Shown: piece by piece, positions 3,156 to 23,019 of the stretch
Layout of the letters: each line of letters starts with the position of its first letter
Position numbering within the stretch: the stretch's first letter is position 1
Source: a bacterium
GTDB taxonomy: Bacteria > SZUA-79 > Acidulodesulfobacterales > Acidulodesulfobacteraceae
Assembly (NCBI GenBank): GCA_027318865.1
Contig: DAHVOJ010000005.1
Location: 1-64,000 of the forward strand
Direction of reading: 5' to 3'
DNA: 64,000 bases
The notes under the pieces: model-generated
Told to the model about the DNA's origin: nothing
The model's database searches: none
Seen by the model: only the letters and a program-made list of their open reading frames with translations
Program-made: the position numbers and the translations under genes

Positions 3156-3168
3156 TTTTGAGTTTATT

Positions 3169-5376: not shown

Positions 5377-5474
5377 TTTGTATTTTAAAATAATTTTTTT
5401 ATTAATATGATAACAATACAATTTATTAAAAAAAAATTCAATAGAAAAAGCTAATTCCATATAGATAATCAATA

Positions 5475-5526: not shown

Positions 5527-5620
5527 AAAAGTAGGGAGAAATTAGATAAAAAATGGATGGATAAATGCGGTAGGCCAGACTTTATTTTGCTAATTTACAA
5601 CATATATTAATACCTTAAAT

Positions 5621-5805
5621 CACCGTTAGAGACTATTAAAATTGTTTTAATATATAATAGACTCTGGATTCCCGCCTACGCGGGAATGACACCCGTTGGG
5701 TGAAAAGTTAAATCCCTTAATTGTCATTCCCGCGCAGGCGGGTACGGTTTAAAGCCGTCGGTATTTAGACGGCTCATCCAGAAAAATAATTTTCTATCGG
5801 CAAAT
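5621..5805. repeat. MITE-like repeat, long form, copy 1
   Basis: The right end TTTCTATCGGCAAATT and the core (CTGGATTCCCGCC, CGCGGGAATGACACCCG, AGCCGTCGGTATTTAGACGGCT) match the copies at 8.2 kb and 20.6 kb. The left end is degraded (CACCGTTAGAGAC for TGCCGATAGAAAC). Inside are palindromes around ATTCCCGC/GCGGGAAT and a 7-bp-stem hairpin, AGCCGTC/GACGGCT. It fills most of the gap between gspD and the DUF2283 gene. Confidence 0.75.
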
Positions 5806-5849
5806 TATAGTTTTTTCTGTCAAGCCAAAATAAAAATGTCACCTTTTTA

Positions 5850-6724: not shown

Positions 6725-8017
6725 CTACGCATAAAATATCTTTTGCCTTAAATGCAAAAGAGCAATATATTTATCTAAATCGGTTTTTATTTTCAGAATA
6801 ATCCTGCCGGAACGCTTTATTATTTTTCCGGCTATATTAAAGAAAGACCATCTGAAAGTTTTTATCGTGTTATTTAAAAAAAGCGGATTTAAAGATTTAA
6901 ATCCTATAAAGAGATTGTAAGACAGAATGCCTATCGCAAAATATACTTCGTTTGCCGCAAACGTACCGCACGATATATTTTTCTGCGTTTTAAAAAACAT
7001 GTTTTTTGCAGAAAAATATGTTTTCCATAGAGAAGCCGCTTTTAATCTCTTTATTGAAGTTTTCCGCCTGCCCTCTTTTATTGTGCCAGTTTATTGCCTC
7101 TAAAGGTTCTTCTTCAAGATTGGTAGCTATTGCGTGATAAAAGTATTGCCCCTCGAACAGGTCGGGCTGTTTCCGATATTCCCTTTTTATAATAAGTCTG
7201 AATGCTTTATCCGTTTTATTCGTGCAGTGGATTATTTCCGCGATTTCAAAGTCTAATCCTTGCGGTCTTATCCATTCCCTTATTGATTTAATAGCTTTTT
7301 TTACCGAACTGTCTAAATCCGCCGTTATCCCCCATTTAACGTCATCTTCCTCAAGTAAATTTATCAAAGAGGACTGATAAGACGCGCTGTCCGCCCTAAA
7401 GTATTTTATTCTTTTACCTTTGGGCATATTATTTTTGCATTTCTTATAGAAATCTACATGGTTAGAGGCGGGGGAGATATTACCCTCCCTGAACTCGTTA
7501 TACAGGCATATGCCGTTTTCAAATAAAAAGCCGGGATCGGCATATAGCCTTTATTATTTTTATAAGTATACGAACATTCCTGTTTTTCGGCTATAATCTC
7601 GGTTGCGTCTATATCCAAGGTATATTCGGCTATATCTTCTTTTTCCATTATTTTTTTTATTATGGAAGAGTTTATAATATTTAATCCGTTAATATCGGTT
7701 CTCCTCAGCCAGTCTCCTATGGTATCCGGTTCGGGAATCGTTTTAATGCCGGTAATGCCTAAAAGTTCCTTTTCGTTTTTAAGTTCTCTTATATCGTCAA
7801 GGCATACGCCTCCTGCGGTTAAAAGAAGAACCAATGAATTTATAAAAACGGATGGATTAAAACCCCTGTTGCTTTTAGGTCTCGTAAGATATTTATCCGC
7901 AAGTTCCGTTAAGCCCATAGCATGGTTATATTCTGCAAAAATAGGCAGTCCCGCTTTAGAAGTTAATTTATCTTCGGTCATTTCTAACTTGAAAGGAAAT
8001 AGTTTTTGTTGTATCAT
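6725..8017 (-). pseudogene. IS1380-family DDE transposase, broken by two lesions
   Basis: Three fragments join to a transposase of about 416 aa. Fragment 1 (from 8017) starts MIQQKLFPFKLEMTEDKLTS and includes DIDATEIIA, with the first catalytic Asp. Near 7531-7540 one base appears to be missing: the next frame resumes as PGFLFENGICLYNEFREGN and SPASNHVDFYKKC, then KYFRADSASYQ. Near 6982-7024 a 43-nt palindromic insertion separates SGFSMEN from ISCGTFAANEVYFAIG; removing it restores the family's G-F-x-L-P-C-G-x-F-A-A-N-like motif in frame. Neither lesion looks like a programmed shift. The element is therefore probably unable to move by itself. A Shine-Dalgarno sequence is not obvious. Confidence 0.85.
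6982..7024. repeat. 43-bp palindromic insertion inside the transposase gene
   Basis: On the minus strand, ATATTTTTCTGC and GCAGAAAAATAT form 12-bp inverted repeats around an inner 16-bp palindrome, AAAAAACATGTTTTTT. The unit interrupts codons for MEN-ISCGTF. A length of 43 is not a multiple of three, so the frame is lost. The exact edges are uncertain by a few bases because of an ATA/TATA repeat at the junction. Confidence 0.7.
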
Positions 8018-8196: not shown

Positions 8197-8210
8197 GTTT
8201 GCCTATAATT

Positions 8211-8409
8211 CCTATAATTTGCCGATAGAAACCGTTAAAATGGCTTTAAAGTTAAATAAACACTGGATTCCCGCTTTCGCGGGAATGACACCCGTTGTGT
8301 GCAAAGTTAAATATCCACAAAGTCATTCCTGCGTAAGCAGGTACGGTTTAAAGCCGTCGGTATTTAGACGGCTCATCCAGAAAAAGAAATTTCTATCGGC
8401 AATTTTGGG
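8211..8409. repeat. MITE-like repeat, long form, copy 2
   Basis: The left end is CCTATAATTTGCCGATAGAAA and the right end TTTCTATCGGCAATTTTGGG (8390-8409); the inner 11 bases (GCCGATAGAAA) are an exact inverted repeat. The core shares the left arm and the CTGGATTCCCGC and GGGAATGACACCCGTTG segments with the other copies. Like copy 1 it has the extra TACGGTTTAAAGCCGTCGG segment with its AGCCGTC/GACGGCT hairpin, absent from copy 3. A 66-codon frame starting at 8219 is an accident of this repeat. Confidence 0.8.
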
Positions 8410-8542
8410 TTTTTTCTGAAATTTGCTTTTTTTTAAAAAATGTGGTATGAATTTTAATATGCACTTATCAAATACTTAATAAATAAATAGTTATTTATTT
8501 AAGCTTAATCTCCTTATAAGCACTGGGGTTAATTATGAAATC

Positions 8543-8724: not shown

Positions 8725-10458
8725 ATGAAAACTAAACATATTAAAAAGATATTTTTACTTCTATTCCCATTTGTATTTGCCTTTATTTTGTCCGGCTGCG
8801 GGGGGGGAGGCGGTTCGTCGAGTCCTACAAGTTCCACCATTAGCGGAACGGCTGATGGAGGATTGAGTCCTATTAACGGCGCGACCGTTACATTATATGC
8901 CGCAGGTTCATCCTCGTCTTTAGGCACGGCAACCACGGTTTCAAATGGAAGTTTCACGATTACTTATACCCCGCCTTCAGGCAATACCCTTTTATATGTC
9001 GATGTTTCCGGAGGCAGCGCCGGAAGCAGCGGTACGAACACGCAGATTGATTTAAAAGCCGCTGTCGGTCCGTCAAACAGCCCAAATACTTCCGTAACGG
9101 TAAACGAGTTTACAACGGTGGCGTATGCGGCATTTGAGTCTAATCCTTCTTTAGCATTAGGCGCCTACAGTAACTACTACGAAAAATACGTTGTTACATC
9201 TTCGGGACAACCAAGTAGTTCGGCGCCTAACGAAACAAATTTGCAAAATATGGAATTGCTGGCTAACGCGGCAGCCTCTTGCGTTCAATCTTCAACAAAT
9301 TCTACAAACTGTTCAGACCTCACAGCCGATGTCGGAGCGACGGGTACGCCTACAACTTATACTATGATAACCGACGGCATTACCAATGGTAATAGTGGTA
9401 GTTTATCCACAAGCGATGTTTCGGGTATAAATACCTTAGCCACAAATGTAGATTCAACTACGGGATGGACTAATATGCCCGCCTCGCCCAGTTCAATGCC
9501 AATATCAACGACTAATTATTATTCTATTGTATCGGGAGTCTATTCCGGAACGGCGCCGGCAGGTGTAATTGTGCCGACTTTTACATTAATAGTAAACCCT
9601 GACAGTAAGTTTAGCTACAGCGATACTATGGGGGATACGGCTTCCGGAACATATAGCCTGTCCGGCACTTCCATTACGATAAGCAACGGAACCTTATGCA
9701 CGCCGACAAGCAGCACAGACAACTGTCAAAACGGACTAGGAACAGATAATTCAATTCCCGGAACATTTACGGTAGGCTCTTATACGATTATTTTTCCTTC
9801 TACGTGGACGGTAAATTTAAATTCGAGCGGAATGCCGGCGTCGATATCGGGGACTATAACAGTTAATGGAACATCCGAGCCGGTTACTTTAAATGTTCAA
9901 ACTTCTGCGCCGTCCGTGACATTAAGCGAGGGTTCTTCCGATATTGCCGGTTTGACCTTTACGAATAATTTCAGTCCCGCATTAACCGGAACCCCGTCAA
10001 ACGGATATATACCTATGACTTATGGTACCAATACGATTGATATGCCGTATGTGCCATATAGCGCTATGGAAATTAACGGAACTTTTAGTTCGTCGTATAA
10101 TAGCGACGGGTCGATTAACTTTTCGGGAACTGCCGCAACCGGTAGCGGTGTTACTCCTGCATATAAGATAAACATTTCCGGCAAGATAAATTCTTATTCT
10201 TCTCTTTATTACGGAGAGTTTGATTCAACCGATGTTTACACGAGCAGTACCGGTATCGGTATATTTTGCAGCGGTTCTACCCTTGCATCTTCGGTTACGG
10301 TTACTTATTCGGGGACAACTTTTATTTTTACCAGCGGAAGTGATAATTACCTTGTTTATTATATTGAACCGACGGGTGTTTCAAACGTCTCTCCAAGCGG
10401 CGCCAGTTGCTCTTCAAGCGATTTTAATTCTACCGGCGGGTTATTTCAACTTGGGTAA
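8725..10458 (+). CDS. Poly-Gly lipoprotein, Ser/Thr-rich, 577 aa
   Basis: A strong Shine-Dalgarno sequence (GGAGGATAACA) precedes the ATG. The lipoprotein signal peptide ends in the lipobox LSGC, and the acylated Cys is followed by a Gly tract (CGGGGGSSS). Next comes a carboxypeptidase-regulatory-like segment (ISGTADGGLSPINGATVTLY), then low-complexity Ser/Thr/Asn/Gly beta-rich sequence to the end. No catalytic motif is seen. The N-terminal layout matches the lipoproteins at 12214-16038 and 16529-19135, so the three form a paralogous group of probable surface or outer-membrane lipoproteins. Unlike those two it shows no propeller blades. Eight G residues right after the lipobox codon could make the gene phase-variable. 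Confidence 0.8.
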   Translation: MKTKHIKKIFLLLFPFVFAFILSGCGGGGGSSSPTSSTISGTADGGLSPINGATVTLYAAGSSSSLGTATTVSNGSFTITYTPPSGNTLLYVDVSGGSAGSSGTNTQIDLKAAVGPSNSPNTSVTVNEFTTVAYAAFESNPSLALGAYSNYYEKYVVTSSGQPSSSAPNETNLQNMELLANAAASCVQSSTNSTNCSDLTADVGATGTPTTYTMITDGITNGNSGSLSTSDVSGINTLATNVDSTTGWTNMPASPSSMPISTTNYYSIVSGVYSGTAPAGVIVPTFTLIVNPDSKFSYSDTMGDTASGTYSLSGTSITISNGTLCTPTSSTDNCQNGLGTDNSIPGTFTVGSYTIIFPSTWTVNLNSSGMPASISGTITVNGTSEPVTLNVQTSAPSVTLSEGSSDIAGLTFTNNFSPALTGTPSNGYIPMTYGTNTIDMPYVPYSAMEINGTFSSSYNSDGSINFSGTAATGSGVTPAYKINISGKINSYSSLYYGEFDSTDVYTSSTGIGIFCSGSTLASSVTVTYSGTTFIFTSGSDNYLVYYIEPTGVSNVSPSGASCSSSDFNSTGGLFQLG

Positions 10459-11903: not shown

Positions 11904-12021
11904 TATATTTTTAATCAATAAATCCATTTTTCTTTTTTCGGATTTAATTTTTGTAATATCGTAAATGCGGCGATTTGGTAATTTTTTATTTATTATATGT
12001 TGAAGTAGTCCATAAAGGTGA

Positions 12022-12064
12022 TTTAAAACAAAAACTCCCGACCACGTCAAACGCAGTCGGGAGT
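12022..12064 (-). terminator. Rho-independent terminator
   Basis: On the minus strand ACTCCCGAC (12064-12056) pairs with GTCGGGAGT (12042-12034) over 9 bp and is followed by TTTTGTTTT. It lies about 150 bp downstream of the 1274-aa lipoprotein gene and would end its transcript. The rest of the gap 11904-12178 contains no convincing gene, only a 66-codon frame that spans this terminator. Confidence 0.75.
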
Positions 12065-12178
12065 GAGAGAATAAATAAATCTTGACACCTTCTATGGACA
12101 CCTCCTACGTTATTTTAGTTCACCTTTATATTTTTAGTTTATATCAACGTAAATCCCGTATATCGTCTCTCTTTTGCC

Positions 12179-12213: not shown

Positions 12214-15200
12214 TCAATGGCGGCTGTTTGGACAAGAAGAAGGCGTGGTTACCGAAACTGGATTTGACATAGCCGTTCCCGCCGAGTTTACCGCCTCAAC
12301 ACTCAATTTGTACGTCGTGGATAGTCCTGCAACACCTTCTGTATAAGATGTTGATGTAATGTTATTTTTAGAGAGATTATCATTAAGATAAACGCTGTAA
12401 CTTGTGGCTCCCGACGAATTTGTCCAGTCCAAATAAATTAAAGGGCGGCCATCAAAGCAAGCCTTGCCATAAGAGCTAATCGTCGGCGCTTGAGGCGGAC
12501 CAGTAGGAGCGATGGGGGTGGCGCTTACGGTTACTGCGCTGCTGTTTCCAGAACTGTCTTGCGCCGTTACCGAGAAAGTGTAAGCCGTTCCGTTAGTGAG
12601 ATTGGTTACGTTATAGATAGTGTCACTTGTGTTAGCCGTCGTAGCGGAACCATTATTAGTATAAGTTATATTATAAGAAGTGGCATAATCAGAAGTTGAC
12701 CACGAAAGCGTTACATTGCCGTTTCCCGGCGTGGCGCTAAGGTTCGTAGGCGGTTGGGGCGGCGGCGGAGAAGAAGGAACCCTTTGGCTTAGATCGTTGG
12801 AATAACTGCTTTCACCCGCGTTATCTTGGGCGGTAACCACAAAGTAATACGTTCTACCTGCGGGAAGTCCGCTTACGGTATAAGAAGTGGAAAATGTATT
12901 GCTAACTGCGCCATAATTAGAATTGCTTAGGGAATCAAAAACGGTATAAGAGCTTGCCCCGATAGCGCTTGTCCACGAAAGCTTAACGCTGCCGTTGTCG
13001 GCGGTTGCCGTTTCGAGGGTCGGGGGGTTCGGGATTGTCGAACTGGAAGTCGGGGTTAAGCATTTTTCGTTACTCATGCCGCTTTGGCCGATGTTATTTT
13101 CCGCAGAAATTTCAAAACAATACTGGGTTCCTATATTTAAACCGCTCGTCTGCCATGAAGTGGAAGCTGTATCCCCAATATTATTAAAAGTGGAACCCGC
13201 CGTGCTTTCGTAAACCTCGTATGACTGGGTATCGGAAGACGCATCCCATTGAAGCGTTACCGTATGTCCTGAAAGGTTTGCTTCGGTCAAAGCAGGCGCC
13301 GCCGGAACGGAAACTCCTGAATTATCGGCACCAACCAGCTCTGTTACAAATCCGTTTTCCTCGCTGTCGGTAACCCAAACATTACCTTGGGAGTCTATGG
13401 CGAGCGACTGAGGGTTCGTTCCGGCACCAAGGTTGTTTACGACCATTGTATATGCAGGTTGGTTGTCCGGCGTGCATGGTCCGTTGGGAACGGAGGATGA
13501 CCTTTGCAGTTCTATAACTGAATTAACATAATAAACATCGCTATCGCTGTCCAGTATAACACTTAAAACAGAATAATTGAAAAAACCGGTAGTTGCCCAT
13601 ATATTTCCTTCGGGATCTGATATTATATCGGTTATACCGGGGTTTGTTCTATAAACGTGGCATATAGCAGGGTCTATAGCAGGGTCATAATTTCCGGTCG
13701 TAGTAGTATTAGTATAAGCCGGATTTAGTTGAATTATCCAGCCATTGTCTGGATTGGTATGTATATATCCGGAATCTGTACTGTTAGAATCATAACACGG
13801 AAGACCGTCTGGGTCGTTATAAGGAGGGATAGAGGCGTATTTTGACCCGTTATCCGGAAGAATGCCAATGGCATAAGGAACTGCAATCCATAAATCCCCA
13901 TTCGGTCCAATAGTAATACCGGTCACTTCAAATCCAAAAGGCCCCAATCCTTCTCCAAATGGTTCTATTGCCGTGAAGTTGGCACCGGACGGATTTAATG
14001 CTTTATTATAATAACTGCCCGTCTCGTCAGCAAGAGCAATAAATCCTCCCTCGGGAATAAAACTCAAGTTGGGTATGTTATCTCCTCCTTGCCACCTAAA
14101 ATATTGTGTAATTGCTTTTGCAATAGTATTATTATAGTGAGGCGACGCCGTGCAAAACCCAGTGCCTCCGCTAGCAAGCGTATCGATAGGGAAAGAAAAA
14201 GTGTGGTAAGTAGCCGCCGCCGGAACATTTCCAAATCCTCCGTACCAGACTGCATTATTACTTGGTATATTACTTACACCGCTACCCTGCTGAAAATAAT
14301 ATGAACTAAGAGCATAGGGCTGAACGATTGCAGAGCTACTAACATAATTTTTAGTATCTTCAAGGCTAAAAATATCCATATCTTTATCGATGAGTGTTGG
14401 AAACTTGGGAGTATAACCCTGCATATTACTTTCTAAATTTGTTGTGGGGACATCATAAAGTGTATCATAACCACTGTAGGTAAATGTTGGTGAATATAGA
14501 TACCCATATGAAAAAAGCCATAGAGAACCATTTATGTAATTAATGCCGAAATTAGCTGGATTAGAAGCGACAATACCCGCACCATTGTTAACGCAATTAA
14601 AACTGCCGCTGCCATCTTGAAGACACGATTTAGATTGACCGCCACCCATATCTACTTGTTCAGTCGGAGAGTTGGAATCATAATCATTAGCAGGACTTTC
14701 TTCGATAAGATCGGCATTATTATAGAAATCATCGTTCATCGAAACCCAGAGATTCCCCGAATTATCAAACGTAATCCCCCCTATTGGAGCAGCATTGCCA
14801 TAACTATTTGCAACCATGTTTGTGATTAGATTTCCGTTTGTATATCTAAGTTGATGTGCGGTAAAAGACGCTGAGCTCGATGGGTGAAATATTGAATAAG
14901 AATAAGTATAGCTGCTTGAAGGGGTATTCTGACAAATATTCGAAAAGCCGTTGGAATTATTGAGCGGATTGGTCAAGACACCGTTATTTAAAACGGCGAT
15001 AGTCGTGGTTGAGAGAGTGCTCCCGTAAATCGCTATGTTTTGGGGATAACAACTGTTAGTAGAATATTCAATAATGTTCCCTCCACCACGACCGCCACCC
15101 CCTCCAATTGGCTGCTGTGGGGTTACAAGAGAGGCTAATTCCTGAAAATCGCCGGAAATGCTTGAAGAAACAGGTATCGTTAAAGATTTCCCGTTAACGG

Positions 15201-16038
15201 TTATGGTAAAATTTGGAAGATTCACCGAGATGCTGCTTGAAGAACTGCTGCCTACCAATGAACTGGAGATAACGGAACTTACGACAGATTCATTATTTTT
15301 TACATAAGAAATTATATAATTCATGGCTTCGGGGTAGCTTATACTTAAACCGTTTGATTTCGCATAAGATACCAGTTCGTTTGCAAACTGCGATAAAAGA
15401 TTGGTTAAGCTGGAAACAATCGCTGAATAATTTGAAGAGGAAACAGGATCTGTATTAAAAACTGCAGAGACGTTGTCAGTCTGGCTAAAACCTGCAAAAG
15501 AGGTTTTTAGTAAACGGAAATTGTTTTCTGCGATTTGATTAGCGGCTAATGTATTTAAGTTAGCCGATACGATTGAATTATTAGTTACACTATATATTCC
15601 TTTCGTTAACATAGTCGATAAAGGAGTAACGTAAACGCTTTTATTGAATTCAAGAAGCAAAGAGGACATCGTCGGCGCAGGTTGCACGGCCCCGCCCGAA
15701 TTGTTTATCAAACCGCCGTTTGAAACGACAAGATAGTCGGAAGAACTTACATAGTTTGGAATGGAAATAGTAAACGACCCGTCAGTGTTCGTCTTGTATT
15801 TTGTGCCGCCAACCTGCACAGCACCGGACGAACCTATTTTATACAGGCTTAAACTTTCACCCGATACTGGACCGTCATATACGCCGCCGGTTATAGTAGT
15901 GTACGATACGGTAGAAGTGGATGAATTTCCTCCTCCTCCGCCGCAGCCTGATAATGCCACGGGAACAGTGAAAATTAACAGCAAAAGGAGTAAAAGGTAA
16001 AACTTGCGGGATTTCTTAAAGAAATTCTTAGGATTCAT
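12214..16038 (-). CDS. Giant poly-Gly lipoprotein with propeller-like blades and four FN3 domains
   Basis: AAGGAGG before the ATG supports the start. The 1274-aa protein has a lipoprotein signal ending in the lipobox ALSGC followed by GGGGGNSS. Residues 45 to about 330 form an adhesin-like beta and helical domain (TTITGGVYDGPVSGESLSLY). The middle carries repeated D-x-x-G-N-x-W blades (ITFDNSGNLWVSM, ISDPEGNIWATT, AIDSQGNVWVTDS) like NHL/streptogramin-lyase propellers. The last 380 residues are four fibronectin type III domains (such as VTLQWDASSDTQSYEVYEST, then VKLSWTSAIGASSYTVFDS). No protease or sugar-binding motif is seen. A cell-surface adhesion or substrate-binding role is likely, but this is inference. 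Confidence 0.82.
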   Translation of the reverse strand: MNPKNFFKKSRKFYLLLLLLLIFTVPVALSGCGGGGGNSSTSTVSYTTITGGVYDGPVSGESLSLYKIGSSGAVQVGGTKYKTNTDGSFTISIPNYVSSSDYLVVSNGGLINNSGGAVQPAPTMSSLLLEFNKSVYVTPLSTMLTKGIYSVTNNSIVSANLNTLAANQIAENNFRLLKTSFAGFSQTDNVSAVFNTDPVSSSNYSAIVSSLTNLLSQFANELVSYAKSNGLSISYPEAMNYIISYVKNNESVVSSVISSSLVGSSSSSSISVNLPNFTITVNGKSLTIPVSSSISGDFQELASLVTPQQPIGGGGGRGGGNIIEYSTNSCYPQNIAIYGSTLSTTTIAVLNNGVLTNPLNNSNGFSNICQNTPSSSYTYSYSIFHPSSSASFTAHQLRYTNGNLITNMVANSYGNAAPIGGITFDNSGNLWVSMNDDFYNNADLIEESPANDYDSNSPTEQVDMGGGQSKSCLQDGSGSFNCVNNGAGIVASNPANFGINYINGSLWLFSYGYLYSPTFTYSGYDTLYDVPTTNLESNMQGYTPKFPTLIDKDMDIFSLEDTKNYVSSSAIVQPYALSSYYFQQGSGVSNIPSNNAVWYGGFGNVPAAATYHTFSFPIDTLASGGTGFCTASPHYNNTIAKAITQYFRWQGGDNIPNLSFIPEGGFIALADETGSYYNKALNPSGANFTAIEPFGEGLGPFGFEVTGITIGPNGDLWIAVPYAIGILPDNGSKYASIPPYNDPDGLPCYDSNSTDSGYIHTNPDNGWIIQLNPAYTNTTTTGNYDPAIDPAICHVYRTNPGITDIISDPEGNIWATTGFFNYSVLSVILDSDSDVYYVNSVIELQRSSSVPNGPCTPDNQPAYTMVVNNLGAGTNPQSLAIDSQGNVWVTDSEENGFVTELVGADNSGVSVPAAPALTEANLSGHTVTLQWDASSDTQSYEVYESTAGSTFNNIGDTASTSWQTSGLNIGTQYCFEISAENNIGQSGMSNEKCLTPTSSSTIPNPPTLETATADNGSVKLSWTSAIGASSYTVFDSLSNSNYGAVSNTFSTSYTVSGLPAGRTYYFVVTAQDNAGESSYSNDLSQRVPSSPPPPQPPTNLSATPGNGNVTLSWSTSDYATSYNITYTNNGSATTANTSDTIYNVTNLTNGTAYTFSVTAQDSSGNSSAVTVSATPIAPTGPPQAPTISSYGKACFDGRPLIYLDWTNSSGATSYSVYLNDNLSKNNITSTSYTEGVAGLSTTYKLSVEAVNSAGTAMSNPVSVTTPSSCPNSRH

Positions 16039-16156
16039 AATATCCTCCTTAAAGAAATAAAAGGTTAAGGCTAGAAAATTTAATTATTCGCTTACTGCTT
16101 ATATTTTACTAAAAACTAAATTTTCATGTTATATTAACAAATATGTATTTATATTA

Positions 16157-16184
16157 ATAATATATCCTCAAAAAAAAATGTCAA
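16157..16184 (-). promoter_or_regulatory. Sigma-70 promoter of the FN3 lipoprotein gene
   Basis: On the minus strand TTGACA (16179-16184) and TATTAT (16157-16162) are 16 bp apart, leaving a leader of about 110 nt. The -35 box lies just outside the duplicated gspI 3' segment (16212-16387), at the same relative place as the promoter of the coiled-coil gene next to the other repeat copy. Confidence 0.6.
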
Positions 16185-16211
16185 ATTTTTTTACTATTTT
16201 TTTTACTATTT

Positions 16212-16387
16212 TTATTTTTTGGATTTTTAAATGTTCAAATAAAATTTTAAGGCGTGATTTTATGATTTTTTAGCGCATAAATCTACTGCGCAAGGGATTT
16301 AAGGGTAAATCCGCTTTTTGGACTTTGCCCTTTTTTGAAAACGGTTATTTTTATCATATAAATGCCGGGGTAGGAGGTTTTGCTTAT
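16212..16387 (-). repeat. 176-bp direct repeat, copy A: orphan 3' end of gspI
   Basis: It aligns without gaps to 21524-21699 with seven mismatches (about 96% identity), in the same orientation. On the minus strand it still encodes the last 34 codons of the pseudopilin gene (SKTSYPGIYMIKITVFKKG, then QSPKSGFTLKSLAQ and stop at 16283), but there is no upstream pilin part, so it is a gene remnant. The remaining 71 bp is the downstream flank of gspI. The gap 16388-16528 otherwise holds only a hairpin. Confidence 0.9.
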
Positions 16388-16433
16388 AAATAATGGTGTC
16401 AGTTTTATTTATTTTATAAGATAAGAAATCCCT

Positions 16434-16459
16434 TACCCCCGCAGATGCATGCGGGGGTA
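16434..16459. terminator. GC-rich hairpin after the 868-aa lipoprotein gene
   Basis: TACCCCCGCA (16434-16443) and TGCGGGGGTA (16450-16459) form a 10-bp stem with a 6-nt loop, 70 bp beyond the minus-strand stop at 16529. The stem is strong but no T tract follows. A terminator or a REP-like palindrome are both possible. Confidence 0.45.
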
Positions 16460-16528
16460 TGAGAATCACCTTTTTTGTTTCATCTTAATGCCTCTTAATG
16501 CCTTCTTGAGCATATTGGTTTGTTTTTT

Positions 16529-19135
16529 TTAATAAGGATTTACCGGACCGCTGACTGCAAAATATCCCGCGGCGGCAATAGCCGGAATCTCTTCAAGTTT
16601 ATTAGCGGCGGTTGTATTATTATTCGTAGTCATCCATATATTGCCGTTCTGGTCTATGAACATAGTAGTATCTGGGGCAAAAGAAAGGGATAAAGGCGTC
16701 CCTACTACGGCAAACCCGCTCCCGCCAAAGTTGTTGACTTCTATTAACTCGCCCGTGCCTGAAGAATTGTTTTTTAAGGCGACCCATATGTTGCCGGCTG
16801 CATCGGAAGCAACGCTCATACTATCGGGATAGTTGGCTGCACTCGCAAGGGTTATCGCCGCGCTTAACGGACCGCCGGACGGATAATAATAAAGTACATC
16901 ATTGCCGCCGGATCGCGCCAGTATCCAGATATTGCCCGAAGGGTCTATGGCAATGGAATTAGCGCCCTGAGTGCACGCGCCTACAGGCAGGCTTGCCGCG
17001 GTTGAAACGGATGAACCGCCGCTCGGAAATTCCAGCAATGCGTCCGGATTCACGCCGCCGCAACTGCTTGGAGACGAAGTCATCCAGACATTATTTGACG
17101 AATCTATTGCAAGTCCGTTCACTGAAACAATGGTCGAAGGTAAAGAATAAGTATTTGCCACGGTCGCGGCGCCTCCGGAAGCCCCCGTTATCTCCAATAA
17201 CTGGCCACTACCCACCACAGAATTGTAAACAGGCAGCCATATATTTCCTTTAGAATCCATTCCGAATCCAGCAGTGAAACCCTGCTGTCCCTGCAATCCC
17301 GAATGATAATAGCTGTCGCTCGAAGGAATGGTATTTTGGGTAAATGAAGCGTTATTAGCCGAACCGGCAGGCAATTCGTCCAGATAGGCGGTTCCGTTTG
17401 CGGCGTCGGTCATAGGCGCCCATAAATTCCCCGTTGGGTCTATAACGATATTATTTATAGTCGGGCTGACGTTTGCTCCAACGGTATAAGTATTTTTTAT
17501 AGTGCTTGAGGTGCCGGATAATTGCACCAAGTTTACCGGAAAAGAGGAACTCGTAGGATTGATTGCTTCTCCGAATATTATATTGCCGCTTTTATCCATT
17601 TCGACCAACGCTAATTGATTTGCGGCGGCTATCCCCGAAGGCGTCATATCGACAAGGGTTCCTGCGTTTGAGGCAGTCGTAAAGCTGGAAGTATAAGCGC
17701 TCGCTATAGCCGTTCCGTTTTGCGCCTTTATGCCGCCGGACGTAAAAGTAATAGTATATGTAGTATTTGCGGTAAGCGGGCTTGCCGGCGTGACGGAAAC
17801 CTCTGTGTCGGTGCCGTTCCATACTGGATTTACAATATTGACCGGCGTGCCTCCAGAAGAAGTTACCGTTGTATCCGTGGCATTAAAAGAATTGATATTC
17901 ATTGCCTCGCTGAAAGTTACGGTAATAATCGGGCTTAAAGATACGCCCGTAGCGGAGCTTAATGGCGATATGGAGGTAACGGTGGGAGCAGGAAGAGTCG
18001 TTCCCGTCGTAAAACTCCATGAAGTGCCGGCAGACAAAGAGTTTCCGTATATGTCTTTTATGCCTGTAGTAACGGCGGCGGTATAAGTAGTACCGGTTGA
18101 AAGACTGCTGGAAGGAGTAAAAGTTATAATATTATCGGACGAACCAGGGCTGAAGGTTCCGGCTACCTGGCTTCCGCCGTTAGGTTTCAGGCTAAAATCG
18201 GCTGTATTAACCGTAGAAAAATCCACCGGATTGCTGAATGCAATCGAAACAGCCGTGCCGGCCGATACGCCTGTAGAACCGCCCGCCGGAGATTCGGAAG
18301 CGGCATCGAATGTAAAAGAATTACCAGACGGTATCGTTAAAGTCTGTGGATTGGCGGAATAAGGATTGGGATTGATGCCTGCCGTTTCAGCCGCGTTGAC
18401 GTTTGTCTGCAAGGCGCTGCTGCTTAAATGGCTCATAATATATTCGATTACGCTGATAGTCGTATTAGTGTTCGACAGAACAGCGCCGTCTATGTTTGTG
18501 CAAGCAGAGTTTGTCGGGGCGTTAACACATTCTGCAAGAGCATCGGACATTATATCTAAATTGTTTGCATCGTTATACGTTGAGCCGACCATACCCGTAG
18601 AACCGTTTACTATTCCGTTGTACGTCTTTGCCACGTTTGCATAATCCGGAGCCGGGGACGGAGGAGCAAGAAGTCCGTTTGCCGCAAGCGTGAAGCCGTA
18701 ATCAGAGGCAATTATCGCCGCCGCGGCCGTAGTCGCCTCATCGACTACAATGGGCGAAACAAGAAGCGCACCTGAAGCATCCCCTAAAATATCGACTAAT
18801 ACCGTAGTTCCGTTTGTAGCGACTATATAAAGCAACGCATTGCCGCCAGGATTCGTATAACTTAAGCTAAAAGAGCCGTTCGTCGTGGTAACGGAAGCTA
18901 AAGCTACGGCGTTTCCTACCTCGTAAAGCGAAACCGTCGTAGTTCCCGCAAGAGGGGTTGGAACGCCGTTAACCGAACCGCTGACGCTTGAACCTGCCCC
19001 GCCCCCGCTACCGGAGCTACTGGAGCCGCCGCCTCCTCCGCACCCTGATAAAACGGCGGTAGCAGAAAATAAAAATAAAGCTATTACTAACAAACTTAAA
19101 AAACTAAAACGTTTAAACGGGGATATTTTCATCAT
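16529..19135 (-). CDS. Giant poly-Gly lipoprotein with Big_5 domains and a six-blade propeller
   Basis: GGAGG lies close before tandem ATG codons (19135, 19132). The 868-aa protein has a lipoprotein signal ending VLSGC, then GGGGGSSSSGSGGG. Residues 50 to 270 resemble the N-terminal part of the lipoprotein at 8725-10458 (SGSVNGVPTPLAGTTTVSLY). Two SbsA-type Ig-like (Big_5) domains follow, from about 275 to 490 (SPAGGSTGVSAGTAVSIAFS, then TSISPLSSATGVSLSPIITV). The C-terminal half has six blades with D-x-x-G/N-N-x-W (VIDPTGNLWAPM, GMDSKGNIWLPV, AIDPSGNIWILA and others), like Vgb/NHL propellers. Probably surface-exposed. The LuxR gene lies directly upstream in the same direction. Confidence 0.83.
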   Translation of the reverse strand: MMKISPFKRFSFLSLLVIALFLFSATAVLSGCGGGGGSSSSGSGGGAGSSVSGSVNGVPTPLAGTTTVSLYEVGNAVALASVTTTNGSFSLSYTNPGGNALLYIVATNGTTVLVDILGDASGALLVSPIVVDEATTAAAAIIASDYGFTLAANGLLAPPSPAPDYANVAKTYNGIVNGSTGMVGSTYNDANNLDIMSDALAECVNAPTNSACTNIDGAVLSNTNTTISVIEYIMSHLSSSALQTNVNAAETAGINPNPYSANPQTLTIPSGNSFTFDAASESPAGGSTGVSAGTAVSIAFSNPVDFSTVNTADFSLKPNGGSQVAGTFSPGSSDNIITFTPSSSLSTGTTYTAAVTTGIKDIYGNSLSAGTSWSFTTGTTLPAPTVTSISPLSSATGVSLSPIITVTFSEAMNINSFNATDTTVTSSGGTPVNIVNPVWNGTDTEVSVTPASPLTANTTYTITFTSGGIKAQNGTAIASAYTSSFTTASNAGTLVDMTPSGIAAANQLALVEMDKSGNIIFGEAINPTSSSFPVNLVQLSGTSSTIKNTYTVGANVSPTINNIVIDPTGNLWAPMTDAANGTAYLDELPAGSANNASFTQNTIPSSDSYYHSGLQGQQGFTAGFGMDSKGNIWLPVYNSVVGSGQLLEITGASGGAATVANTYSLPSTIVSVNGLAIDSSNNVWMTSSPSSCGGVNPDALLEFPSGGSSVSTAASLPVGACTQGANSIAIDPSGNIWILARSGGNDVLYYYPSGGPLSAAITLASAANYPDSMSVASDAAGNIWVALKNNSSGTGELIEVNNFGGSGFAVVGTPLSLSFAPDTTMFIDQNGNIWMTTNNNTTAANKLEEIPAIAAAGYFAVSGPVNPY

Positions 19136-19153
19136 TTTTCCTCCATACTTTTA

Positions 19154-19203
19154 TTTGAAATTAAGATAAAATTTTACTTAATTGTAGTTTATCTTATTTC
19201 AAA
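19154..19203 (-). promoter_or_regulatory. Long inverted repeat in the leader of the 868-aa lipoprotein gene
   Basis: TTTGAAATTAAGATAAA (19154-19170) and TTTATCTTATTTCAAA (19188-19203) are inverted repeats that match apart from one extra base. The structure lies 19 to 68 bp upstream of the ATG. It could be a DNA operator for a dimeric regulator or an mRNA leader stem. No clear -35/-10 pair was found in this gap. Confidence 0.5.
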
Positions 19204-19230
19204 AAAAGAACAATCGTCCAAATGGACGAT
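19197..19230 (-). terminator. Terminator-like palindrome after the LuxR gene
   Basis: ATCGTCCA (19213-19220) and TGGACGAT (19223-19230) form an 8-bp stem with a 2-nt loop. On the minus strand it is followed by TGTTCTTTTTTTG, a T tract, and lies 22 bp beyond the stop at 19253. It reads as an intrinsic terminator for the regulator gene. The perfect palindrome could equally be an operator in front of the lipoprotein gene. Confidence 0.55.
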
Positions 19231-19252
19231 AAAAATACTTTTGCGGAAAAAA

Positions 19253-20410
19253 CTAAAAGGAGGTTGCGGCAAACCTTTTGAGTTCGCGGGTGGAAATTAC
19301 CTTAAGCTTAAACATAATATGCGACATGTGGGTTTTAAAAGTGCTTCTCGTAATATTAAGCCTCTGGGTTACTTCTGCCGTACTTAGGTTTTCTTTTAAT
19401 AATAATAGTATAGCGGCTTCTTTTTCCGTAAGATTATATATAATTTTTTTATTAAGCCTTAAAAACGACTCCTCGTAAATTTCTTCCACGGTTATACTGA
19501 CTAAGCTTTTTTCGCCACTTTTTATGGATTCGAGGTAATATCCTTTTAATAAAAAGCTCCTGCCGGTCTTAGAGGTATAAATCCTTTGGGGCATAGGGGC
19601 TCCCATGGAACCCGCGGCCCCTGCCCCCTCGAAATAATTTCTCACGACGGCGTTTATATATCCCATGCACCATTCAATTTCATCTCCGCATGAGGCTTCG
19701 AATCGGCGAAGACAGCCGCGTTCAAGCATCTTAGTTTCCGAAAACATGGTCTTTACGGCATCGTTTATATAAATTATTTCGCCATTTTTAGCGACTAAAA
19801 TAAATCCCGGCTCATTTTCGCGCAATTTAAAAACGCCGGCTCCTAAATTTGCCACCTCCGTCAAAGATTCTTCGAGGACTTTAGATTTGGACAATCCGTA
19901 GGATATAAAAGGGGCTACGGCCCCTAAAAACAAGACATCTTCATTCGTAAAAACAGGCATGTCTTTAGATCTGAAGAGGGTAAAAAACCCGATAGGCGTT
20001 TTGCAATCGAACAACTTTGCCATTATTATATAGTAATAGCCTAAAGTCTTGTTGATTTCATTATACAGGAATCCATTTTGATAATTAGGAAGGGCTATTT
20101 CGTCGTGGACTATAACATTGCCTCTTCCGAGGGTCAAAAGTTCCGCAGGAACGACAGCCCCCGCTTCTTTTCTATTCAGCGAAAAAAGCCTTTCATAAAG
20201 AGGTTTATATCTCGAATAATCTATGTGCCGCGAAATAAACCCCGCACTGTTAAACATTATAAGCCTGTGGTCGGTGCATAAAATTCCCAGCCCTATTAAG
20301 TCGAAAAGTATGTCAACATATTGGGCAGAGGGCAATAACATTAACGAAAGCCGCTTTATCTTTTTTATGACGCCGAGTCTTTCGGCAAACGAGGCTATTT
20401 TTTTGAACAT
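19253..20410 (-). CDS. LuxR-family transcriptional regulator with a PAS/GAF-like sensor
   Basis: The C-terminal 60 residues are a LuxR/FixJ helix-turn-helix: LTEKEAAILLLLKENLSTAE, then VTQRLNITRSTFKTHMSHIM, FKLKVISTRELKR. The N-terminal part has a GAF-like region (residues 100 to 200) and a PAS-like strand (FILVAKNGEIIYINDAVKTM). There is no receiver domain with a phospho-Asp pattern, so it probably senses a small molecule or redox state directly. I start it at the ATG at 20410 (385 aa); a TTG at 20509 would add 33 weakly supported residues. It is followed by the 868-aa lipoprotein gene, with palindromes between, and is the only regulator in the accessory block. Confidence 0.8.
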   Translation of the reverse strand: MFKKIASFAERLGVIKKIKRLSLMLLPSAQYVDILFDLIGLGILCTDHRLIMFNSAGFISRHIDYSRYKPLYERLFSLNRKEAGAVVPAELLTLGRGNVIVHDEIALPNYQNGFLYNEINKTLGYYYIIMAKLFDCKTPIGFFTLFRSKDMPVFTNEDVLFLGAVAPFISYGLSKSKVLEESLTEVANLGAGVFKLRENEPGFILVAKNGEIIYINDAVKTMFSETKMLERGCLRRFEASCGDEIEWCMGYINAVVRNYFEGAGAAGSMGAPMPQRIYTSKTGRSFLLKGYYLESIKSGEKSLVSITVEEIYEESFLRLNKKIIYNLTEKEAAILLLLKENLSTAEVTQRLNITRSTFKTHMSHIMFKLKVISTRELKRFAATSF

Positions 20411-20609
20411 AAAAAATATTCGGACGATAAATCTTTGAGCTGAAGAATTATAAAAGCCATATTTTTTTTGCGGAAAAAGGTATGCGGTATGCTTTTTCAA
20501 AACATGCAAAAATATATGTTTAGTATTAAGCCTTCGGCTTTATAAGCGCTAAGCCCATATCTGTAATACCTTAATATATTTATACATTAATTTCAATCAA
20601 TAATCAAGT

Positions 20610-20775
20610 CCCAAAATTGCCGATAGAAACCATTAAAATGGCTTTAAAGTTAAATAAATACTGGATTCCCGCCTACGCGGGAATGACACCCGTTGGGTGA
20701 AGACCTTAAAACCTGCGAAGTCATTCCTGCGTAAGCAGGAATCCAGAAAAATAATTTTCTATCGGCAATTTTGGG
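20610..20775. repeat. MITE-like repeat, short form, copy 3, with intact ends and target duplication
   Basis: The left end CCCAAAATTGCCGATAGAAA (20610-20629) and the right end (20756-20775) are perfect 20-bp inverted repeats. The 5 bp outside each end are CAAGT (20605-20609 and 20776-20780), a target-site duplication. The 166-bp element carries no gene. It contains the palindromic ATTCCCGC...GCGGGAAT and ATTCCTGC...GCAGGAAT segments. It lacks the TACGGTTTAAAGCCGTCGG segment present in copies 1 and 2. Confidence 0.88.
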
Positions 20776-20844
20776 CAAGTTCAATAATCAACCTTAATCC
20801 TGCAATAGAATTTTAATTTTCTGGATTAACGCTTCGCCATCTCC

Positions 20845-20896
20845 AGCACGCATTTATCAAAGACATGCTTTGGACATGCTTTGATAAACGCGTGCT
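20845..20896. repeat. Large imperfect inverted repeat with tandem 10-mers in the loop
   Basis: AGCACGCATTTATCAAAG (20845-20862) pairs with CTTTGATAAACGCGTGCT (20879-20896) at 17 of 18 positions, and matching GCCAT/ATGGC bases lie further out. The loop region repeats ACATGCTTTG twice. It lies 42 bp beyond the stop of the coiled-coil gene on the minus strand. It might act as a terminator-like structure or small RNA; no T run is present. Confidence 0.5.
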
Positions 20897-20938
20897 TCCG
20901 ATATGGCACATAGAAGGGATAAATAAATCTGATTTTTT

Positions 20939-21451
20939 TCAAAATATTCCCATAATCTTAAAGAAAGCGCCCAGAACTCCCAGTAAAGATATTGCAACGG
21001 CTATAGAAAACATTCTTAAGGTAAAATTGCGCTGGTCTTTATCCCTGTAATCTAATTTGTCGCTGAGCTTATCAATAGAGGCAATTACCTGCTCGAACTT
21101 TTTGTCCACCTGATCGAATCTCTTGTCCACCTGCTCGAATCTCTTGTCCACTTGCTCGAATCTCTTGTCCACCTGCTCGAATCTCTTGTCCACCTGCTCG
21201 AATCTCTTGTCCACCTGCTCGAATCTCTTGTCCACCTCCGAGAACCTTCTATCCACGTCTTCCTTAAAATCCCTCATATTGAGCCTGTCAAGCTCCTGGT
21301 TTCTTCTTATCTCGTCTATCTGAACCTGAAGAAGGTCAAACCTTGCATCGAAGTATTTAGCGTTGGGAAATATCCCGGCTATAAAGGTTAACATTTCGTT
21401 GGGATTAGCTAAATTATTCTTGTCTTTCTCATTAGCGGCCGATTCGCTCAT
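20939..21451 (-). CDS. Tail-anchored coiled-coil protein with exact heptad repeats
   Basis: AAAGGAG precedes the ATG at 21451. The 170-aa protein has residues 45 to 125 as a coiled coil built from the heptad VDKRFEQ, repeated seven times with small changes (VDRRFSE, VDKRFDQ, VDKKFEQ at the ends). The last 25 residues (TLRMFSIAVAISLLGVLGAF) form a single membrane helix, so the coil is probably anchored in the inner membrane and faces the cytoplasm. Proteins of this style are widespread and uncharacterised. The gene has its own sigma-70 promoter and lies between gspI and the LuxR gene, inside the repeat-bounded segment. Confidence 0.75.
   Translation of the reverse strand: MSESAANEKDKNNLANPNEMLTFIAGIFPNAKYFDARFDLLQVQIDEIRRNQELDRLNMRDFKEDVDRRFSEVDKRFEQVDKRFEQVDKRFEQVDKRFEQVDKRFEQVDKRFDQVDKKFEQVIASIDKLSDKLDYRDKDQRNFTLRMFSIAVAISLLGVLGAFFKIMGIF
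21099..21245 (-). repeat. 21-bp tandem repeat encoding VDKRFEQ heptads
   Basis: Five 21-bp units, CTCTTGTCCACCTGCTCGAAT on the plus strand, run from 21120 to 21224; one unit differs at one base. Degenerate units flank them on both sides. The near-identity at DNA level, including third codon positions, shows recent expansion by slippage or unequal recombination, so the copy number may differ among strains. It is not a CRISPR array: there are no spacers and the frame is open. Confidence 0.9.
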
Positions 21452-21478
21452 AAAAAAACTCCTTTTTGTTATAAGTTA

Positions 21479-21507
21479 ATTGTATCATTCAAATAATTTT
21501 TTTTCAA
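21479..21507 (-). promoter_or_regulatory. Sigma-70 promoter of the tail-anchored coiled-coil gene
   Basis: On the minus strand TTGAAA (21502-21507) and TACAAT (21479-21484) are separated by 17 bp, with TG two positions before the -10 box. The leader is about 20 nt and contains the AAAGGAG ribosome binding site. The promoter lies just downstream of direct-repeat copy B. Confidence 0.65.
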
Positions 21508-21523
21508 ATCTTATTTTTTGGAC

Positions 21524-21699
21524 TTATTTTTTGGATTTTTGGATGTTTAAATAAAATTTTAAGGCGTGATTTTATGATTTTTTAGCGCATAAATCTACTG
21601 CGCAAGGGATTTAAGGGTAAATCCGCTTTTTGGATTATGCCCTTTTTTGAAAACGGTTATTTTTATCATATATATTCCGGGGTAGGAGGTTTTGCTTAT
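21524..21699 (-). repeat. 176-bp direct repeat, copy B: 3' end of intact gspI plus flank
   Basis: It is the partner of 16212-16387 (seven mismatches, no gaps). It covers the last 35 codons of gspI and 71 bp downstream. Because gspI is intact here, this is the parental copy or the reconstructed one. Recombination between the copies would remove about 5.3 kb and leave a complete gspI. Confidence 0.9.
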
Positions 21700-22041
21700 C
21701 GATTTTTTGACCATATAGCCTTTTGCGCCGCGTATTTTTTCCTGTTTGTTCATTATATATATTTCGTTTAACAAAAAAACTTTGGACATTATGTTTTTGG
21801 CAAGAACGGTTTCGTAGGCGGTATTGTTAGCGTAGCCGTAATCGCTTACCGCCCTTGCCTGAGCGGCGAGAAGAGGTATTAAGGCTATACCGAGTATCAC
21901 GAGGGCGATTAAGACTTCTATGAGCGTAAAACCGGCATCGGAAATAACGCCGGAAACACCCCTGCAAACCGACGACTGCCGTCCATATTCTTCTTTATCA
22001 ATCAAACGCTCTTTTCTTAAACAGTGAAAAAAATATATCAT
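21595..22041 (-). CDS. gspI: Type II secretion pseudopilin GspI-like
   Basis: The 148-aa protein has a prepilin motif, AGFTLIEVLIALVILGIALI, with cleavage expected between Gly and Phe near residue 37 and the conserved Glu at +5. The leader is longer than usual and contains several basic residues; no other start codon is available downstream. The short C-terminal domain, rich in Lys (SYPGIYMIKITVFKKG), suits minor pseudopilins GspI or GspV. It follows gspC by 27 bp. Its 3' end is duplicated at 16212-16387. In most T2SS operons gspI and gspJ are adjacent, but here they lie 20 kb apart. Confidence 0.75.
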   Translation of the reverse strand: MIYFFHCLRKERLIDKEEYGRQSSVCRGVSGVISDAGFTLIEVLIALVILGIALIPLLAAQARAVSDYGYANNTAYETVLAKNIMSKVFLLNEIYIMNKQEKIRGAKGYMVKKSISKTSYPGIYMIKITVFKKGHNPKSGFTLKSLAQ

Positions 22042-22068: not shown

Positions 22069-23019
22069 TTATTCTATCCGATAGTTCATAGTTATATTTT
22101 GCGTGCCTTGCGTTACATCGATAGACACGTTGTTTTCGTTCATAATGCCGGATAATAAATTTACGGCTTCCTGCGGACTGGAAAGAGGCGTTCCATTGAC
22201 GGATTTTATTATATCGCCAGGCTGAAAACCCATGTATGCAAAAATGCCTATAGGAAGTATGGTTAAAACTTTAAATCCGATTATTTTGCCGTTTACGATA
22301 TCGGGGACCGCATGCATCTGCGTAAATATAGAATTTAAATCCGACTTTTTAATCTTTGACCTGTCGATTAAATACGAATACCGTCCGGTTTTTTTTATTG
22401 CCGAACTTAAGGAAGACATAGGGGATGCGGGGTGAGATATGTTTCCAACAGCAGGACTGGACGAAAACGAAGTATTCCCGTTTTTGATTTTAACCAAAGA
22501 TACGGTATATCTTCTGCCGAAACCTGAAATTACGGCGCTTTTTAGTTTTACGGCGCTTAAATAATACCCGGGCTTTATTTCCGCTCCCTGCGGTATAAAA
22601 AGTTCTTTGCCGTCAGTTTTATTTATAAAAAATGCATAGCCGAAACTTCCGCTGATAGTTCCTATTAACGTTAGATTTAAAGACGGGGTGAAATCTTTTG
22701 AATTAAAATTTAAAAGCGGGCCGTTTACGACGGCGTTAAGCGGATTGTATTTTAAAATACCCGAATACTGCCGAATAGTCGGTTTTTTCCGGACTGAATT
22801 TATGTTAAACGTTTGAGGCGTTATGCCCGCCTCCAGCAAATCGTATTCGAATATTTCGTATGTAATAAATTTTATGGCGGCATTGCTTGCGAAAATAGAT
22901 ACTATAAAGATTATGAATAATTTGAATAAAATTTTATAGATTCCGTCTTTATTTTTTAAAAAACCGGATATATTATTGAATAAGGTATTTTTTATTTTTA
23001 TAATACGAGTTTTATTCAT
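22069..23019 (-). CDS. gspC: Type II secretion inner-membrane protein GspC (PDZ)
   Basis: The 316-aa protein has a short cytoplasmic tail, a membrane helix near residues 30 to 50 (LFKLFIIFIVSIFASNAA), then a homology region (LNLTLIGTISGSFGYAFFIN, then GAEIKPGYYL) that binds the secretin N0 domain. It ends in a PDZ domain from about 230 (GIFAYMGFQPGDIIKSVNGT, then LSSPQEAVNLL). This is the GspC plan, linking the inner-membrane platform to GspD and probably selecting substrates. A generic PDZ protein is unlikely given the neighbours gspL and gspI. Confidence 0.82.
   Translation of the reverse strand: MNKTRIIKIKNTLFNNISGFLKNKDGIYKILFKLFIIFIVSIFASNAAIKFITYEIFEYDLLEAGITPQTFNINSVRKKPTIRQYSGILKYNPLNAVVNGPLLNFNSKDFTPSLNLTLIGTISGSFGYAFFINKTDGKELFIPQGAEIKPGYYLSAVKLKSAVISGFGRRYTVSLVKIKNGNTSFSSSPAVGNISHPASPMSSLSSAIKKTGRYSYLIDRSKIKKSDLNSIFTQMHAVPDIVNGKIIGFKVLTILPIGIFAYMGFQPGDIIKSVNGTPLSSPQEAVNLLSGIMNENNVSIDVTQGTQNITMNYRIE

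Follow-up and report, generated by a model that had tools for sequence, protein, structure and literature searches.

What process placed two copies of the 3′ end of the pseudopilin gene gspI, in the same orientation, on the two sides of a segment of about 5 kb, and was that segment gained or lost? We analyzed the surrounding window (the whole stretch of 64,000 nucleotides, at its full length), which belongs to a fragmented metagenome-assembled genome (MAG) of 1.46 Mb in 121 contigs, together with related genomes of the genus. The organism may be a member of an acid-mine-drainage lineage such as Candidatus Acidulodesulfobacterales.

The 3′ end of gspI is present twice

The repeat pair and the DNA that it encloses are the following:
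16212–16387, minus strand: repeat copy R′, an orphan gspI 3′ end, presumably displaced, which retains the ancestral downstream neighbor (the gene of a 1274-aa lipoprotein)
21524–21699, minus strand: repeat copy R, the last 34 codons of the intact gspI, the stop codon, and 71 bp downstream
16388–21523, no strand assigned: the putatively inserted segment, 5136 bp from copy to copy; none of the 5 relatives with a readable site has it behind gspI

The 2 copies lie exactly where the original prediction had placed them. They are 176 bp long and 96.0% identical, in the same orientation, with 7 mismatches, no gaps, and a spacing of 5312 bp. The mismatches (16229, 16230, 16236, 16323, 16325, 16361, and 16364) are located toward both repeat ends and frame an exact core of 86 bp (16237–16322). 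The pair reaches a bit score of 287, whereas no direct repeat in 5 Markov-simulated windows scored above 40. At the right boundary, the copy ending at 16387 begins at gspI codon 115, so that 34 codons and the stop (TAA) are included, where 34 to 35 codons plus flank had been predicted; the left boundary (16211/21523) falls in T-rich DNA. The coding part of R (21595–21699) lies within an intact gspI of 148 codons, while that of R′ (16283–16387) is found without any gspI 5′ part and with an in-frame stop just upstream. The reading frames of both copies thus confirm the expected layout, with gspI complete on one side and only its 3′ end on the other. The 2 promoters proposed for the genes next to the copies, encoding the 1274-aa lipoprotein and a heptad protein, are also present, just outside the repeat.

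We also looked for the repeat elsewhere. The assembly of the organism contains no third full copy, no empty junction, and no circle junction. A dispersed repeat was rejected, as the genome has 2 full copies only and a 35-bp match in contig C42 (2886–2920) belongs to an unrelated intergenic region. About 512 kb of the same genome were surveyed and held no further direct repeat of at least 100 bp made of a gene 3′ end, and a conserved 26-mer behind gspI was found only there in 1.18 Mb of (partly overlapping) sequence, bar a single match with 4 mismatches. Separately, several direct repeats of 60–137 bp (83–95% identical), 3 of them about 6 kb apart, were seen in locus L117 (G000:C48).

An assembly effect, by which an empty chromosome and a separate circle or a second strain were merged via the identical core, is barely credible as the origin of this structure. 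The MAG is fragmented, and 86 exact base pairs could exceed the k-mer of the assembler, but the junctions 16387/16388 and 21523/21524 share no homology able to create them falsely, and neither of the alternative junctions is represented by a further contig of the assembly.

The duplication lies inside a type II secretion operon

The genes next to the repeat and at the far end of the lipoprotein region are:
21595–22041, minus strand: intact gspI-like minor pseudopilin gene, 148 aa, with an N_methyl Pfam match (TIGR01707 E 4e-9, below its curated cut-off)
22069–23019, minus strand: gspC-like gene with a PDZ domain (GspC_delta profile E 3.9e-28, below its curated cut-off)
1542–5472, minus strand: gspE and gspD (secretin), with which the type II secretion operon resumes beyond the lipoprotein island that interrupts it

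The gene order is lipid A genes, msbA, a gene for a 434-aa protein, gspC-like, gspI-like, 16 kb with 3 lipoprotein genes, gspD, and gspE, so that a GspC-like protein, a GspI-like protein, a secretin, and a T2SSE ATPase are encoded in one strand order. As the GspI and GspC profile scores are below the curated cut-offs, these names also lean on gene neighborhood. In relative G001, gspI, 2 lipoprotein genes, gspD, and gspE follow each other within only about 4 kb, and the same order in the window can therefore be read as a type II secretion operon that a lipoprotein island has split open. The insertion site falls within this operon, a point absent from the original prediction. The lipoproteins may be considered candidate substrates secreted by this type II system. 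An IS1380-type transposase gene, split into 2 reading frames, is located in the island but outside the segment (6990–8017).

The segment is a mosaic and carries no recognizable recombinase

The segment contains 3 genes, a promoter-like site, and a short repeated element:
20939–21451, minus strand: heptad (coiled-coil) protein gene, 170 aa, with homologues in G006, G023, G004, and G016
21479–21507, minus strand: promoter-like site of the heptad gene, TTGAAA-17-TACAAT, 10 of 12 positions, TG before the second hexamer, outside the repeat
20610–20775, no strand assigned: MITE-like element, 166 bp, with perfect terminal inverted repeats of 20 bp and CAAGT/CAAGT flanks
19253–20509, minus strand: LuxR-type regulator gene, 418 aa, GerE domain, with an 83% identical homologue in G010
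16529–19135, minus strand: 868-aa lipoprotein gene, Big_5 and propeller repeats, LSGCGGGGG lipobox, whose homologue in G010 adjoins luxR

These modules also occur in other places. Together with its promoter (up to 21508), the heptad gene stands alone between flgD and a regulator gene in G006 and between a PIN-like gene and nadB in G023 (gene names from reading translations). A close homologue of LuxR was found in G010 only, plus G045 via an identical contig, and a close homologue of the 868-aa gene in G010 only (contig G010:C7), with neighbors different from those in the window; neither luxR nor the 868-aa gene has a second copy in the own assembly. By sequence comparison, the segment is thus a mosaic of modules found separately elsewhere. 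The heptad-repeat gene (window 20941–21508; loci L131, L132, L133, and L134) occupies unrelated places in other genomes, and the length of its repeat stretch varies. Promoter-like sites are not enriched in the region (17, versus 13.9 ± 3.8 in shuffles).

The MITE-like element has at least 8 further copies in the genome at 99%–100% identity, several partial copies at contig ends, and counterparts at 8206–8418 and 5608–5819 of the window; contig C25 carries 3 copies about 4.03 kb apart (13681, 17716, and 21748). As a cause of the repeats it was rejected, its copies being inside the segment or elsewhere and none at the repeat ends. The repeats themselves encode gspI codons and have no transposase at their ends, which sets them apart from a composite transposon or IS unit, and no enclosing transposon was found around the segment. 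A phage or plasmid origin was also discarded: viral contigs yielded no relative of LuxR, phages yielded no relative of the heptad protein, and the 868-aa protein matched 2 Caballeronia plasmids just weakly, across 20% of its length.

A complete gene on one side, paired with a stranded 3′ end on the far side, is the textbook layout of a genomic island, and we asked whether an integrase could have inserted the segment at the gene 3′ end. The repeats would then be attL and attR, a substitute gspI 3′ end would have been brought in, and the integrase would have been lost or would act in trans. The likeness to such islands is real, since direct repeats stand at both ends and one of them rebuilds gspI while the other is left as an orphan. 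The difference is that no integrase was found here: among the 3 segment genes, Pfam and PHROGs detected no integrase, excisionase, transposase, or mobilisation gene, as the original prediction had stated for integrases. Moreover, no integrase-bearing element occurs at gspI in the relatives with a readable site, and the luxR-lipoprotein module has different ends in G010. We consider this explanation very unlikely.

Relatives carry gspI without the segment

The gene that follows the orphan copy and its promoter are:
12214–16038, minus strand: 1274-aa FN3 lipoprotein gene, the ancestral-type neighbor of gspI, whose promoter and signal peptide are common to relatives and whose mature part is not
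16157–16184, minus strand: promoter-like site of this gene, TTGACA-16-TATTAT (16184–16157), 11 of 12 positions, outside the repeat, conserved in G011:C73

In 4 gspI loci of relatives (2 in G011, 1 each in G002 and G006), gspI runs directly into the start of an FN3-type lipoprotein gene. The closest is G011:C73, in which gspI is followed at once by a promoter and signal peptide matching window 15929–16204. When the window flanks are joined at the repeat, they align with this contig in one piece over 831 bp at 87% identity. The product that excision had been predicted to leave, gspI joined to the flank at 16211, is thus the natural arrangement in G011:C73. The match is looser in G002, G011:C35, and G006, where gspI directly precedes a lipoprotein gene whose promoter and signal peptide are of the same type, and other genes stand behind gspI in G001 and G003. 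The heptad-luxR-868-aa segment is not behind gspI in any of G001, G002, G003, G006, and G011, and none of the other 15 genomes of the genus was found to have luxR or the 868-aa gene next to gspI.

Considering the gspI-FN3 junction of the relatives, the segment is best explained as having been inserted, in which case the old 3′ end, now displaced, would be the copy at 16212. The occurrence of the separate modules in other relatives, together with the empty site, also makes insertion in this lineage the simplest reading. We therefore infer that the direction was probably gain here and not loss in the relatives. Since the relatives compared are other species, a loss of the segment in them is a conceivable, though less likely, alternative; those with record titles are MAGs from metagenome assemblies.

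The bases of the 2 copies add to this picture. At 21590, 21621, and 21622, both copies carry changes that are seen in none of 6 gspI genes of relatives, so that they descend from one gspI gene of this lineage. Of the 4 right-hand differences, 3 (21635, 21673, and 21676) show R′ with the base that most relatives have, and position 21637 is equivocal. This is suggestive of R′ as the displaced native end and of R as a slightly different incoming end, with only 7 sites bearing on the question. The 4% divergence between the copies, a signal from the same 7 sites, would speak against a very recent event, unless the incoming DNA was itself divergent beforehand.

The opposite order of events would produce an identical final structure: the segment would be old behind gspI, and a gspI 3′ end with the promoter and the FN3 gene, from an ancestral-type strain, would have been added behind the 868-aa gene. 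The mostly ancestral coding bases of the orphan copy would fit. This scenario requires an earlier loss and a later regain of the gspI-FN3 neighborhood, and in no relative is gspI joined to the heptad/luxR segment. We regard it as unlikely.

The original prediction had left the choice between an integrated circle and a tandem duplication. A duplication or replication template switching at the locus, followed by deletions and with no horizontal import, would account for the lineage-specific changes common to both copies. It could also draw on a second 3′-end repeat, found in G010:C7 (L046), where a 183-bp direct repeat of the luxR 3′ end (96% identical) is present at 917–1099 and 4979–5161. There, the orphan luxR 3′ end stands before the lipoprotein gene and the intact luxR 4.06 kb away, an arrangement that fits a duplicated luxR-lipoprotein unit with parts lost. 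Since the order in this contig (orphan, lipoprotein, OMP, luxR) is unlike that of the window, either a duplication that was later rearranged or the integration of a circle may lie behind it. As a second case in the genus it also speaks for an additive insertion in the window, yet it is no clean replicate, as the gene order differs. A contig in a MAG assigned to a different genus, G045:C5 (L063), is 100% identical to G010:C7 over the 8583 bp of both, so that the 2 are not independent cases, and one of them is probably mis-binned. For the window, the insertion layout holds, while simple tandem duplication is less supported because the first unit lacks the DNA found behind the second copy (no FN3-type DNA follows it) and several extra deletions are needed. 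The assembly also offers no second luxR or 868-aa copy as a source. We give this alternative little credence.

Probable additive homologous recombination at the gspI 3′ end

On balance, we consider it fairly probable that the repeats were left behind by an additive insertion, through ordinary homologous recombination at the gspI 3′ end. A partial duplication of the homologous locus flanks the insertion, and the site is empty in relatives. The donor DNA would have carried a copy of the gspI 3′ end joined to the heptad-luxR-lipoprotein segment, and this end would have recombined with the resident one. The likeliest substrate would be a short circularised fragment entering by one crossover, the alternative being a linear fragment with homology at one end; the single-crossover route is our inference. 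Additive recombination would account for the whole layout in a single event. The orphan 3′ end and the FN3 lipoprotein gene would have been pushed 5.3 kb downstream within a variable lipoprotein slot (gspC-gspI-[slot]-gspD-gspE). Through the event gspI would have been kept complete, since one of the 2 copies of its 3′ end continued its reading frame. Among 16 genomes of the genus, the arrangement expected of a donor, with the segment joined to a gspI end elsewhere, was not found, and no circle was found. As the original prediction had said, the sequence implies that a crossover between the 2 repeats as they now stand would keep gspI complete, whichever 3′ end it received, and present-day excision of the segment would be possible.

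This structure resembles Campbell-type insertions seen in a study of homology-facilitated illegitimate recombination in E. coli. When DNA homologous to one end of lacZ was introduced by conjugation, part of the gene end was duplicated in 56 of 60 recombinants, the duplications measuring 109–950 bp in those sequenced, which was attributed to a single crossover of a circular molecule (PMC3240628). In both cases a direct repeat of a gene end brackets the insertion and the rest of the gene is single-copy; the E. coli insertion involved a laboratory plasmid (PMC3240628), whereas here a natural chromosomal segment is concerned.

The slot behind gspI holds different lipoproteins

We also looked at the lipoproteins of the island, the third of which lies on the opposite strand:
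8725–10458, plus strand: 577-aa lipoprotein gene; the start of its mature part matches the gspI-linked lipoprotein of G011 at 91% (DNA)

The Leu-Ser/Thr-Gly-Cys-Gly4 codon pattern occurs 3 times in the whole assembly, always in the window (8788, 15932, and 19029), meaning that all 3 poly-Gly lipoproteins of the genome sit in one operon gap, between gspI and gspD. In different species this gap holds different lipoproteins. The gspI-linked lipoprotein of G011 is a chimera, with the promoter and signal peptide of the FN3 lipoprotein (90%) and the mature start of the 577-aa one (91%), and the switch point is inside the 16-bp run of poly-Gly codons after the lipobox (L047, G011:C73, 1–520, compared with window 8795–9046 and 15929–16204). 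The G010 lipoprotein corresponds to residues 1–34 and 378–868 of the 868-aa protein. These comparisons support the idea that mature domains may be exchanged behind signal peptides. In the intergenic region 11918–12103, a part of about 40–55 bp recurs several times in lipoprotein neighborhoods of relatives (L048, L050, L051, and L052).

A bolder proposal is that the gspI gap works as an expression site. New lipoprotein modules would enter it, push older ones aside, and become joined to an unchanging promoter and signal peptide, by recombination at gene 3′ ends and at the poly-Gly codons after the lipobox, and the repeats would allow switching between the FN3 and the LuxR-linked lipoprotein in present-day populations. 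We hold it to be distinctly unlikely in this full form.

Relation to known loci and significance

In type VI secretion effector-immunity arrays, homology-facilitated illegitimate recombination was proposed and orphaned Rhs 3′ regions were compared (PMC5361080). The likeness to these arrays is an additive horizontal insertion at a secretion locus that displaces an older module as an orphan, with no integrase known (PMC5361080). The orphan 3′ ends of Rhs/CDI loci similarly correspond to an older end pushed downstream, also with no integrase known (PMC3150448). The orphan there is a toxin tip or an immunity gene (PMC5361080, PMC3150448), while in the present locus it comes from the 3′ end of a gene for the machine itself. 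Nor is the cargo of the toxin-immunity kind of Rhs and T6SS loci, as it comprises lipoproteins (Ig-like, FN3, and propeller), a LuxR regulator, and a coiled-coil protein. A surface lipoprotein gene within the secretion operon is shared with type II systems encoded together with a lipoprotein substrate, such as SslE of E. coli (PMC5012682); in contrast to SslE, the lipoprotein here varies by species and the operon is opened by up to 16 kb.

The main interest of the locus is the variable lipoprotein slot in a secretion operon. Our results suggest that a type II secretion operon can be a docking place for the exchange of surface lipoproteins via plain homologous recombination, a kind of exchange comparable to that already known for type VI and Rhs/CDI loci. 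Should such exchange continue today, it would offer a simple route to surface variation that needs no recombinase of its own, in a group represented here by metagenome assemblies only.
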